This document shows positions 50,621 to 53,688 of a DNA stretch of 59,559 nt, in pieces; position 1 is the stretch's first letter, and each line of letters opens with the position of its first letter. The notes under the pieces were generated by a model, which worked only from the letters and a program-made list of their open reading frames with translations, was not told where the DNA came from and did no database searches. The stretch is from an uncultured Spirochaetaceae bacterium (GTDB lineage: Bacteria > Spirochaetota > Spirochaetia > Sphaerochaetales > Sphaerochaetaceae). The stretch is from positions 1-59,559 of the forward strand of contig OMYY01000017.1 in NCBI GenBank assembly GCA_900315435.1, in the 5' to 3' direction. The translations under genes and the position numbers were made by a program.

Positions 50621-51979
50621 TCAAATACCGAGCAGTTCCTTGGCGACGGTGAAATAGATGATCAGGGTCAGGGCATCGACGATGGTGGTCAGCATCGGGC
50701 TTGCCATCAGCGCCGGGTCGAGGTGGAGTTTCTTGGCGACGATGGGCAGCGTCGCGCCGAGCACCTTGGCCATGCAGACCGTGCAGACCATCGTCAGGCT
50801 TACCGTCAGCGCGACGGTGACCTGGACGTTGCGGTACGTCAGCATGATGCGGGCGAAGTTGACCGTGGCCAGGATGGTGCCGCAGATGACGGCGACGCGG
50901 ATTTCCTTCCAGACGATCCGGAACCAGTCATGGGGGGTGAGCTCGCCAAGGGCGAGACCGCGGATGATCATGGTCGAGGCCTGACTGCCGGCGTTGCCTC
51001 CGGTATCGGTCAGCATCGGCACGAAGCTGACCAGAATCGGAATCAGGACGAAGGCGCTCTCGTAGTGGGAGAGGATCGAGCCGCTGACCATGCCGCTGAT
51101 CATCAGCACCAGCAGCCAGACGATACGGTTGCGTGCCAGCTCGAAGACACCGGTTTTCAGATAGGGCTTCTCGGAGGGCTGCATGGCCGCCATCTTCTCG
51201 AAGTCTTCGGTCGCCTCGTCGGACATGACATCCACGGCGTCGTCGACGGTCACGATGCCGACAAGCCGGTTCTCCTTGTCGACGACCGGCATGGAGAGGA
51301 AGTCGTATTTCCTGAACAGCAACGCCGCTTTCTCCTGGTCGTCCAGGGTCGTGACGCTGATCACATCCTTCTCCATCAGGCTGTCCACCACGGCGTCATC
51401 CTTTGCGAGCAACAGGTCCCTGATGGTGACGATTCCTTCCAGGTGGTGCTTCTCGTCGGTGACGTAACAGGTGTAGATGGTCTCCTTGTCTTCGCCGACG
51501 GCCCTGATGCGGGAAATCGCCTCCTTGACCGTCATCGTCTTCTTCAGGTCGACGAACTCGGCGGTCATGATGGAGCCGACGCTGTCTTCGGGGTAGCGGA
51601 GATAGGTGTTGATCAGGCTTCGGGTATCGGGCTTGGCGATGCGCAGGATCTTGCGCACGATGTTGGCCGGCAGCTCGCCGATCATGTCCACTGCGTCGTC
51701 GGTGGCCAGGTCCTCGATGATGGTGGACAGCTGTTGGTCGTTCAGGCTGCTGATCAGGGCCTGCTGGCTGTCGCGGTCCATGTTGGCGAAGACGTCGGCT
51801 GCGACATCCTTTTCCAACAGGCCGAACACCACCATCTTCTGGGTGTTGGTATCCAGACTGCTGATGAAATCGGCGGCGTCCACCTCGTTGATGTGGGTGA
51901 GCTCCTCGGCAAGCTGGGTATATTTTCTGTTCTGTACGAGCTCGGTCAGCTCTTCTTTGTTGTACTGATACTGATCCAT
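50621..51979 (-). CDS. mgtE: Magnesium transporter MgtE
   Basis: 452 aa divalent cation channel. N-terminal superhelical MgtE_N domain (residues about 20-120), CBS pair (about 125-250; SIMTAEFVDL, VDSLMEKDVISV, GIVTVDDAVDVM) that senses Mg, then five transmembrane helices with the pore signature FVPMLTDTGGNAGSQAST (about 330-345). AGGGGA precedes the ATG. The leader of about 165 nt contains nested helices and a small ORF, which points to regulation at the RNA level, possibly by Mg. Confidence 0.95.
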   Translation of the reverse strand: MDQYQYNKEELTELVQNRKYTQLAEELTHINEVDAADFISSLDTNTQKMVVFGLLEKDVAADVFANMDRDSQQALISSLNDQQLSTIIEDLATDDAVDMIGELPANIVRKILRIAKPDTRSLINTYLRYPEDSVGSIMTAEFVDLKKTMTVKEAISRIRAVGEDKETIYTCYVTDEKHHLEGIVTIRDLLLAKDDAVVDSLMEKDVISVTTLDDQEKAALLFRKYDFLSMPVVDKENRLVGIVTVDDAVDVMSDEATEDFEKMAAMQPSEKPYLKTGVFELARNRIVWLLVLMISGMVSGSILSHYESAFVLIPILVSFVPMLTDTGGNAGSQASTMIIRGLALGELTPHDWFRIVWKEIRVAVICGTILATVNFARIMLTYRNVQVTVALTVSLTMVCTVCMAKVLGATLPIVAKKLHLDPALMASPMLTTIVDALTLIIYFTVAKELLGI

Positions 51980-52031
51980 GGCAATCCCCTAACACGCAAC
52001 TGGATTGGAAGATGAATCTGAACAGACAAAA

Positions 52032-52094
52032 TCACATGCGGCTGGAGTCGCACAAGTGATAGTCCAGATTCGAACTTCGGTCGTTCGGTTTCAC
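52032..52094 (-). CDS. Putative 20-codon leader peptide upstream of mgtE
   Basis: A GTG start lies five bases after a perfect AAGGAGGT on the minus strand and opens a frame for MKPNDRSSNLDYHLCDSSRM, ending in TGA. It sits within the predicted mgtE leader, about 50 bases before the mgtE ATG. Its Shine-Dalgarno site is partly inside helix P1 of the leader. No homology is claimed. Confidence 0.4.
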   Translation of the reverse strand: MKPNDRSSNLDYHLCDSSRM

Positions 52095-52112
52095 TGGGTA
52101 CCTCCTTGTGCG
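52049..52112 (-). promoter_or_regulatory. Structured mgtE leader RNA element (candidate cis-regulatory RNA)
   Basis: Three nested perfect helices can form: P1 eight pairs (CGCACAAG at 52112-52105 with CTTGTGCG at 52056-52049), P2 four pairs (CCAG/CTGG, 52094-52097 with 52064-52067), and P3 five pairs (CGAAC/GTTCG) with a seven-base loop. Asymmetric internal loops separate them. The element lies between the predicted mgtE promoter and start codon. I could not match it to the M-box or another known class by eye. Confidence 0.5.
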
Positions 52113-52150
52113 GAATATCTGCCAACCTCTTACAAGATCGGGTCACTGGA

Positions 52151-52179
52151 TTTATACCATGAATGCAAAAAGGGGGCAA
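52151..52179 (-). promoter_or_regulatory. Predicted promoter of mgtE
   Basis: On the minus strand TTGCCC, 17 bases, TATAAA. The expected transcription start is near 52144, giving a leader of about 165 nt. Confidence 0.55.
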
Positions 52180-52243
52180 CCCTTCGTCTTGCCGTCCTTC
52201 GCTATCGCGGAGCAAAAACCTGCAAAATGTGGTGTGCCCCGCG

Positions 52244-52272
52244 TTGTCTCTTTCCCTTTCGGGGTGTAGACT
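52244..52272 (+). promoter_or_regulatory. Leaderless-type promoter of the MATE gene
   Basis: TTGTCT, 17 bases, TAGACT, then six bases to the ATG at 52279. No Shine-Dalgarno site is present. Confidence 0.5.
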
Positions 52273-52278
52273 GGGCGC

Positions 52279-53688
52279 ATGTCCCTTCTCTCGAGCTATT
52301 TCGTATCCGACCGGGCCTTGTCGCGGACGCAGCCACGCGGTCCCGTGCCAGCGACCGGATGGCTGGTACGGCATACCCTGCAGGTTGCCTGGCCTGCGAT
52401 GGTCGAGCAGTTTCTGGTTTCGCTGGTGAGCTTGGTCGACACGATGATGGTCGGCGTCCTTGGGGCCTACGCGATCAGCGCCATAGGGCTGTGTGGACAG
52501 CCGAAGTTCATCACCTTGGTTCCCTTCTTCTCCTTGAATGTCGGGCTTTCCGCGGTGATTTCCCGGCGCAAAGGGGAGGGGGACCGGGCAGGGGCGAACC
52601 GGGCCATGCTCTTCGGCCTGAAGCTGGCGGTTTTCCTGGGACTGGTGTTGGGGTTGCTCGGAGTGCGTTTCAGCCGGCAGATCCTGCTGTTCGCCGGCGC
52701 GGCTCCGGACACGATCGACGCGGCCCAATCCTATTTCGACATCATCGTCGGCGGCATGGTCTTCAATGTCCTTTCCCTGGTGATCAACGCTGCCCAGCGG
52801 GGGGTGGGCAACACCAGGATTGCCATGCGGACCAACCTGACCAGCAATCTGGTCAACCTGGTGCTGAACTACTGTCTGATTGGCGGACATTTGGGATTTC
52901 CCGCGTTGGGGGTCAAGGGAGACGCGATTGCCACGGTGTCCGGCACGGTGGTCGCCTGCGCCATGAGTTTCGCCTCGATCTTGAAGCCGGACAGATATTT
53001 GTTTTTGGGTTACGGGAGCAGGGAATCCCGCAGGGTGGACAAGAAGACGACGAGCGCCTTGTGGCGGGTTTCCAGCGCCTCCTTGGTCGAGCAGCTGTTT
53101 TTGCGGATCGGATTCATGACCTACGCGATCCTGATGGCGAGGCTGGGGACGATTGCCTTCGCTGCCCACCAGATTGGCATGAACATCCTCTCCCTTTCCT
53201 TTGCCGTCGGCAACGGCATCTCGATTGCCGTGGTTGCCTTGGTTGGACAGAGTTTGGGCGAAGGCAGACCTGACATGGCCAGGCTGTATGGCCACCTGTG
53301 CCAGAAGCTGGGGTTGCTCTTCAGCGTGACCATGGCCTTGGTCTACACTATCTTCGGCAAGGCGATCTATGCCGCTTTCTCCAGTGACAGCCGGATCCTG
53401 GGCTATGGGGAGAGAATCATGGCGCTGCTCTCCCTGATTGTGGTCCTCCAGGTGTCGCAGGTGATTTTCAGCGGCTGTCTCAGGGGTTCGGGCGATACCC
53501 GGTCGGTCGCCATGGTGGCCTTGGTCAGCGTCGCCTTCATCCGTCCTTTCTGCGGCTGGCTCTTTACCTATCCGCTCGCCCTCGGCCTGATGGGAGGCTG
53601 GATGGGGCTCCTGTTGGACCAGTTCATGCGCTTCCTGCTTACCTTCTTCCGTTTCCGTGGCGGGAAGTGGCTTACCATCAAGCTCTAG
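52279..53688 (+). CDS. MATE-family efflux transporter
   Basis: 469 aa inner-membrane antiporter with twelve predicted helices in two MatE halves. N-terminal half: WPAMVEQFLVSLVSLVDTMMVG and GLCGQPKFI. C-terminal half: SASLVEQLFLRIGFMTYAIL and FAAHQIGMNILSLSFAVGNGIS. Such pumps export cationic drugs or metabolites with Na+ or H+. The start has no ribosome site but a promoter immediately before it. It diverges from mgtE and is followed 19 bases later by rsmI. Confidence 0.93.
   Translation: MSLLSSYFVSDRALSRTQPRGPVPATGWLVRHTLQVAWPAMVEQFLVSLVSLVDTMMVGVLGAYAISAIGLCGQPKFITLVPFFSLNVGLSAVISRRKGEGDRAGANRAMLFGLKLAVFLGLVLGLLGVRFSRQILLFAGAAPDTIDAAQSYFDIIVGGMVFNVLSLVINAAQRGVGNTRIAMRTNLTSNLVNLVLNYCLIGGHLGFPALGVKGDAIATVSGTVVACAMSFASILKPDRYLFLGYGSRESRRVDKKTTSALWRVSSASLVEQLFLRIGFMTYAILMARLGTIAFAAHQIGMNILSLSFAVGNGISIAVVALVGQSLGEGRPDMARLYGHLCQKLGLLFSVTMALVYTIFGKAIYAAFSSDSRILGYGERIMALLSLIVVLQVSQVIFSGCLRGSGDTRSVAMVALVSVAFIRPFCGWLFTYPLALGLMGGWMGLLLDQFMRFLLTFFRFRGGKWLTIKL

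Follow-up and report, generated by a model that had tools for sequence, protein, structure and literature searches.

A putative uORF-gated anti-SD switch in the leader of a spirochaete mgtE gene, with relatives in Clostridia

The M-box (ykoK) Mg2+ riboswitch is known upstream of mgtE genes. In translational attenuators of the ermC type, masking of the downstream ribosome binding site (RBS) depends on where the ribosome stands on a leader ORF; they differ from the element described here in their antibiotic-induced stalling and in their genes and peptides. The M-box aside, we know of Mg2+-responsive leaders that use a translated upstream open reading frame (uORF) only from Enterobacteria, and our search of open-licence papers found no conserved leader peptide described before mgtE for spirochaetes or Clostridia. 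Within the Salmonella mgtCBRU operon, the 8-codon uORF mgtQ lies between mgtC and mgtB, and experiments in Salmonella, as given in the available text of PMC8092293 on this enterobacterial system, demonstrated that early holding or loss of ribosomes turns expression ON and smooth passage turns it OFF. The MgtL peptide of the E. coli and Salmonella mgtA leader has the acidic/proline destabilising motif EPDP and operates through Rho-dependent termination (PMC11282234, available text), and an acidic composition is described as a signature in the available texts on both MgtL (PMC11282234) and mgtQ (PMC8092293). The mgtE motif of Thioalkalivibrio comprises 32 representatives from one genus, and no uORF is described for it in the available text of PMC11109978.

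The leader considered here precedes mgtE on the minus strand of the window, that is, of the whole 59,559-nucleotide stretch of DNA analysed from an uncultured Spirochaetaceae bacterium. Its closest known counterpart is mgtQ: judged from the available text of PMC8092293, both have a short uORF with an AGGAGG Shine-Dalgarno sequence (SD) before a Mg2+ transporter gene, alternative stems (1:2 and 3:4 versus 2:3), an anti-RBS segment which hides the transporter RBS, and acidic codons, which here occur in members of the family. On the same source, the differences are that the present uORF has 20 codons (about 18–57 in relatives), stands in a 5' leader and precedes the unrelated channel MgtE; moreover, its peptide core is [GD]RS..(DS)D[YIVH][HP]L, and by eye no kinship with the mgtQ peptide was seen. 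Two hallmarks of the mgtQ type were found: a short uORF with a strong SD before a Mg2+ transporter gene (AAGGAGG, a coding signal and PF01769, the translation itself being predicted), and an anti-RBS segment able to pair either with the uORF or with the downstream RBS, as indicated by covariation in Clostridia, while in the window clade the pairing with the uORF (P5) is supported and that with the RBS (P6) weakly so. MgtL is likewise a leader peptide before a Mg2+ transporter, and spirochaete relatives of our uORF carry SADPDPVP, DDPL or DSDP; the difference from the available account of MgtL (PMC11282234) is that the latter uses Rho-dependent termination, whereas the helices supported here point to the mgtE start site. 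EPDP itself is absent from the window peptide MKPNDRSSNLDYHLCDSSRM. The Thioalkalivibrio motif is similar in its structured leader with an mgtE-like SD and AUG within a stem, and dissimilar in its restriction to one genus and in having no uORF in the available description (PMC11109978).

We consider that the uORF in the window leader probably attenuates translation of mgtE in the manner of Salmonella mgtQ, and the element is best called a uORF-gated anti-SD switch of mgtE; its working resembles that of mgtQ, with no kinship in anything tested. Three RNA segments would compete in it. Region 2, the mid-section of the uORF, has two possible partners: the uORF start behind it (1:2, giving P1 with the inner helices) and, ahead of it, the segment that precedes mgtE (2:3, giving P5). 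The latter segment (region 3) may alternatively pair with the SD and AUG of mgtE (3:4, giving P6). If the leader is idle or translated smoothly, P1 and P6 would prevail and mgtE would be little translated; early holding or loss of ribosomes on the uORF would keep P1 open, P5 would form and capture region 3, and the mgtE start would be freed, so that the P5 state is presumably the ON state. The likely trigger is low Mg2+, under which ribosomes would become unstable while making an acidic or proline-containing chain, by the intrinsic ribosome destabilisation seen with MgtL and mgtQ. Mg2+ is suggested as the signal by the gene (mgtE) and by the acidic-residue signature of the peptide family, and ribosome destabilisation would be the sensor, an argument which is weakest in the window copy; we are less confident in Mg2+ sensing by this route in the window copy than in the switch, and we suppose that this copy works as its Clostridial relatives do.

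Table 1. Features of the mgtE leader region in the window (all on the minus strand)
Feature	Position	Strand	Description	Basis
Predicted promoter	52151..52179	-	-35 TTGCCC 52179-52174, 17-nt spacer, extended -10 TGG TATAAA 52159-52151	read from sequence
P0	52122..52141	-	5' hairpin upstream of uORF SD; 8 pairs, GTAA loop	fold
P1, 5' arm	52105..52112	-	CGCACAAG	fold, pair counts
uORF SD	52101..52107	-	AAGGAGG	identical in L003-L005
P2-P4, inside P1	52058..52102	-	52102-52099/52061-52058, 52097-52094/52067-52064, 52087-52083/52075-52071	MFE
uORF	52032..52094	-	GTG at 52094, 20 codons, TGA 52034-52032; MKPNDRSSNLDYHLCDSSRM	synonymous excess in frame only
P5, 5' strand	52062..52078	-	uORF codons 6-11; GAAG 52078-52075 + GAATCTGGAC 52071-52062	Clostridial counterpart covaries
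P1, 3' arm	52049..52056	-	CTTGTGCG, uORF codons 13-16	
Terminator-like hairpin	52028..52059	-	TCAC-TT-GTGCG/CGCAT-GTGA then TTTT; shares P1 3' arm, inside P5	
P5, 3' strand	52008..52023	-	past uORF stop; GTTCAGATTC 52023-52014 + CTTC 52011-52008	
P6, 5' strand (anti-RBS)	52002..52018	-	GATTCAT 52018-52012 + CAATCC 52007-52002	fold
mgtE SD	51985..51990	-	AGGGGA	sequence
P6, 3' strand	51973..51987	-	GGATTG 51987-51982 + ATGGATC 51979-51973; covers mgtE SD + start codon	fold
mgtE	50621..51979	-	452-aa MgtE-type Mg2+ channel; PF01769 over cut-off, E 2.8e-40	translation

In the order of transcription, the extended -10 promoter, P0, the SD, the GTG-initiated uORF and a 52-nt gap lead up to mgtE, the closest named protein to whose product is the MgtE of the MAG Spirochaetales bacterium SUG1938 (97% identical). 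An earlier note on this DNA had described a structured mgtE leader at 52032-52144 behind a promoter, without naming the strand; the leader is indeed there, on the minus strand, and the promoter can be read from the sequence upstream of it. Our promoter scanner, which requires T at the last -10 position, did not list the site at 52179-52151; the site is retained in L003, and TATAA-like boxes occupy the same position in L004 and L005. These three leaders, together with that of the window (L002), make up the window clade, which comprises all such leaders present in the searchable data and only three distinct sequences among the four. A search of plasmids with the leader gave no match. The intergenic region is common to mgtE and a divergent 469-aa ORF (52279-53688, plus strand) which by eye resembles a MATE-type efflux protein.

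The SD of the uORF is near-perfect, with a match length of 8, and no other SD in the leader, that of mgtE included, is as strong; it shares AAG with P1, as the earlier note had observed for this small ORF. The peptide is single-copy in its own genome. In the window genus and the next one the uORF encodes MKPNDRSSNLDYHLCDSSRM, MKPNDRSSNLDYHLCDSIRL, MKPSSRSSNLDYHLCGFPHI and MDNPNGSRSQNQDHHSCARICTV, in more distant members of the same family MDKCGKSASISDDPLSR and MTSRFMKADGDDPLSR, and in Clostridia MDICGRSTKMDSDIHLRGRS, MDACGQSSRMDSDYHGQM or MEGRSHKTESDGSHPEPKAE; NCBIfam has no family for these peptides, and the single Pfam match, to a peptide from Clostridia, is a chance one that stays under the cut-off. 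Judging from a listing of best-SD ORFs, picked blindly, a strong-SD uORF of this kind occurs in 19 of the 30 mgtE loci of the window's family (L002-L031) and no such uORF in 10; in L026 the uORF is present with its SD cut off by the contig start. Several spirochaete mgtE genes (L142, L143, L168, L012-L014, L018-L021) are without it, so the uORF leader was lost or never gained in these lineages. Among Clostridia, a motif search revealed the uORF before mgtE in 48 of 79 loci; for L074 and L081 the upstream sequence was too short for uORF listing. Judging from its codon differences, the uORF evolves as a coding sequence: the synonymous share among single-difference codons, counted pairwise with sequences reused and hence descriptive only, is 0.50 (8/16) in the window clade, 0.40 in the CGRS and 0.48 in the MEGRS Clostridia versus about 0.23 expected, and 0.00-0.32 in shifted frames.

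The case for a leader element rests on conservation, not on fold energy. The earlier note had proposed three nested helices of 8, 4 and 5 pairs, and the minimum free energy (MFE) fold of 52144-52032 contains all of them (CGCACAAG/CTTGTGCG, CCAG/CTGG and CGAAC/GTTCG), together with another helix of 4 pairs, GGTA/TATC, and, apart from these, a 5' hairpin of 8 pairs. For this stretch the fold z-score is -1.83 on the minus strand, with 9 of 200 shuffles equally good, which is a slight excess over chance; the whole leader, at -0.65, shows none, and the plus strand gives -0.43. P1, with its 8 pairs, is kept in all four window-clade leaders (95.8% of cells paired, one pair changed on both sides among three distinct rows), and its energy against shuffled partners gives p of 0.018, 0.037, 0.028 and 0.17 for L002-L005; across the 31 spirochaete leaders, P1-like pairing is limited to part of the family. 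The inner helices P2-P4, including the 4- and 5-pair helices of the earlier note, are absent in the more distant L005 and are not widely conserved. At the P0 position, L004 (GTTCTCC/GGAGAAC) and L005 have hairpins of different sequence. A general 5' hairpin was set aside because its statistics are just moderate: over 41 leaders the mean z is -0.96, with p<=0.05 in 9.

The interval given in the earlier note contains the conserved P1; the decisive pairings P5 and P6 lie mostly outside it, in 52023-51973, and connect the uORF with the start region of mgtE. In the window clade, the segment before mgtE can pair alternatively with the uORF mid-section or with the mgtE start. For P5, 87.5% of cells are paired, with two compensatory pairs among the three distinct rows, and p against shuffled partners is 0.13, 0.04, 0.025 and 0.001 (L002-L005); P1 and P5 together have 3 doubly changed pairs, a number also attained by 44 of 500 shuffles, the rows being so few. 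P6 energy in the same leaders is no better than that of shuffles (p 0.19, 0.34, 0.23 and 0.09), and its pairs differ between the window and L004/L005. Across 31 spirochaete leaders the mean z is -1.19 for P5-like pairing (t-test p 3.5e-5) and -0.93 for P6-like pairing (p 0.0013), p-values that are optimistic given that the leaders are related. Eleven of the 53 non-redundant leaders, being upstream-gene fragments or having no recognisable family peptide, were left out of these spirochaete statistics and of those for P0 and the terminator, and 13 were left out of the single-leader swap test; in spirochaetes this test gave a weak Fisher p of 0.032 (0.05 for the window itself), its RBS window being too short for several leaders.

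Predicted folds also indicate how the ribosome may set the switch. The P1 and P5 states of the four clade leaders are 0.5, 2.1, 1.2 and 5.9 kcal/mol apart, and when the start region of the uORF is masked to imitate an initiating ribosome, all four predicted folds adopt the P5 state; 5, 4, 8 and 9 of the 16 bases from the mgtE SD to the AUG are then paired versus 9, 12, 9 and 12 in the P1 state. With -3 to +27 masked, for a ribosome that has reached codon 4-5, the predicted folds are P6-like and not P5; the ON state would therefore require ribosomes to be lost or to be held right at the start.

The covariation support for P5 and P6, as far as alignments can tell, is strong in Clostridia; in the window clade P1 and P5 have compensatory changes and P6 is weakly supported. 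Compensatory changes in homologous leaders, whose absence would have refuted the earlier note by its own criterion, are thus present, few in the clade and many in Clostridia. Among 33 Clostridial leaders the mean pairing z against shuffles is -1.54 for P5 and -1.49 for P6. MEGRS leaders have, ahead of mgtE, a segment whose complement is found twice, in uORF codons 8-12 and in the SD region of mgtE; the three strands are exemplified by ACGAAAGCAGAA, TTCTGCTTTCGT and GCGAAAGGAG in L062, and matching changes in all three are found in L057, L065 and L091. Over 18 leaders, MEGRS P5 is 80.1% paired, with 13 doubly changed cells versus 4.4 in shuffles (0/500) and a covariation of 0.242 versus 0.167 (0/500), and MEGRS P6 is 89.5% paired, with 24 versus 10.3 doubly changed cells (0/500) and a covariation of 0.481 versus 0.258 (0/500); slid versions of both helices score lower. 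CGRS P5 is 84.1% paired, with 11 versus 4.7 doubly changed cells (2/500) and a covariation of 0.355 versus 0.270 (1/500). In alignments A4, A5 and A6 the arms were placed by eye with the pairing in view, which favours the paired-cell counts. A4 holds 18 rows, namely 16 of the 17 MEGRS leaders (L072, which has no matching segment, is out) plus L062 and L089; A5 holds 22 of the 28 CGRS leaders, excluding the near-copies L079, L100 and L101 and the anchorless L071, L087 and L090. The single-leader swap test was significant for MEGRS (Fisher p 9e-4) and not for the CGRS Clostridia (p 0.18). In addition, the GTCTG which follows the terminator T-tract in Clostridia is conserved as part of the P5 strand, and the window has it too (TTTTGTCTGTT). 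In L034, L037, L041 and L106, strong intrinsic terminators stand between uORF and mgtE, and their T-tract leads straight into the P5 strand (TTTTTGTCTGTT).

A sequence-only covariance model of the uORF regions of 36 Clostridial leaders made 20 matches in the 19 genomes reached through 20 of the loci, and by their coordinates all 20 are mgtE leaders that were already in the set; these genomes had contributed to the model, so that this is a measure of specificity and not of sensitivity. When 88 MgtE proteins are arranged in a tree, those of the window clade and of L006-L011, its relatives in the family, share one group of 64 rows with all Clostridial rows (support 100/99), and most other spirochaete MgtE lie outside it; the branching inside this group is poorly supported. 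The shared peptide cores would fit either common descent or a transfer of mgtE together with its leader.

Since the hairpin at the uORF stop is followed by a T-tract (TTTTGTCTG), one can suggest transcription attenuation, in which this hairpin would be an intrinsic terminator prevented by P1, and ribosomes on the uORF would decide. Its energy in the window is -8.8 kcal/mol, with 2 of 40 shuffles equally good, and 8 of 15 Clostridial leaders have a hairpin with a T-tract of -8 kcal/mol or better between uORF and mgtE. However, only 4 of 36 spirochaete leaders do, and the window T-tract has just four T. The hairpin is weaker in L003 and was not found in the next relatives L004 and L005, which makes it doubtful as a terminator, and a simple intrinsic terminator was not kept as the platform in the window; we regard this alternative as improbable. 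Terminators being common in Clostridial and rare in spirochaete leaders, the output stage apparently varies. It is also unlikely, on our estimate, that the same uORF switch senses not Mg2+ but how many ribosomes are generally available, how fast they initiate or a charged tRNA (rare CGA Arg, Cys or His codons). Such a sensor would agree with the CGA-AGT of uORF codons 6-7 (52079-52074, minus strand, in the window), nearly invariant at the nucleotide level in Clostridia and the window, with the window peptide, whose P3, D5, D11 and D16 include no close acidic pair and make it a weak example of the acidic signature, and with the finding that any condition holding ribosomes at the start yields P5 in the predicted fold. 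Nevertheless, the frozen CGAAGT is explained better by the long-range pairing of P5, with CTTC or ACTTCC, than by the peptide; the element is mgtE-specific in the 19 genomes scanned, and the amino acids shared within a clade are not kept elsewhere, whereas an enrichment in acidic residues extends over the spirochaetes. An acidic pair within three positions (residues 2-20) occurs in 33 of 53 non-redundant uORFs (SD match of at least 6, some upstream-gene ORF fragments included) versus 11 and 8 in the other frames, and in 23 of 33 spirochaete uORFs versus 1 and 3; the 20 Clostridial uORFs have no frame-specific excess (10 versus 10 and 5). Acidic peptides of unlike sequence are exemplified by MSDSDGGGSIP, MTDSDGPGSQPPEP, MEAGKSIYSADPDPVP and MDTDPGSC.

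The mgtE context and the structured leader would also suit a metal-binding riboswitch (aptamer) containing an ORF by coincidence. This is very improbable in view of the coding-like evolution of the ORF, the little sequence conservation outside the uORF and the pairing arms, the joint divergence of peptide and RNA between clades, and the Rfam search, which found nothing in the window, nothing up to E 10 on 51950-52300, and only tRNAs in 20 related mgtE loci. The M-box (RF00380), similar in its mgtE context and different in its definition, which has no uORF dependence, is absent here: its model gave no gathering match in the window, none up to E 10 on 51950-52300 and none genome-wide, in agreement with the visual impression of the earlier note, which had named a significant M-box score as a refutation. 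A functionless chance ORF in a structured leader is scarcely credible; the modest fold z-scores would allow it, and the conservation, coding signal, specificity and covariation all speak against it. The uORF-gated switch of mgtE is therefore the reading we prefer: of the Mg-responsive or translation-coupled element suggested by the earlier note, translation coupling is the best reading, and the Mg2+ part follows from the gene and the peptide family.

More tentatively, one can regard the element as a Mg2+ gauge built from the ribosome and found in two phyla, where one reading frame would provide both a ribosome-destabilising peptide and an RNA strand, which in many Clostridia would imitate the mgtE RBS so that one anti-SD segment swaps; it would travel with mgtE and be mgtQ/MgtL-like without visible sequence kinship. 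If so, many spirochaetes and gut Clostridia have a similar solution in front of mgtE, whose product is a major Mg2+ channel of bacteria; nature would thereby offer numerous candidates for ribosome-destabilising peptides, with which to test what nascent chains make ribosomes Mg2+-sensitive, and an unusual case of codons under both peptide and long-range base-pairing selection.

The mgtE genes of L006, L007 and L011 have no recognisable SD and carry a conserved CTTCGTCTC (TTTCGTCTC in L011) about 15-25 nt before the start codon. A tRNA-like element, prompted by GTTCGAATC, was dismissed: ARAGORN found none. Outside the window genome, the M-box model matches 6 of 198 Spirochaetia genomes, and three of the four fetched M-box loci have an MgtE-like sequence (about 33-35% identity) nearby; in L170, L171 and L172, from other Spirochaetia families, a true M-box has a distantly MgtE-like gene in its vicinity. 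Thus, the class uses at least two leader types.
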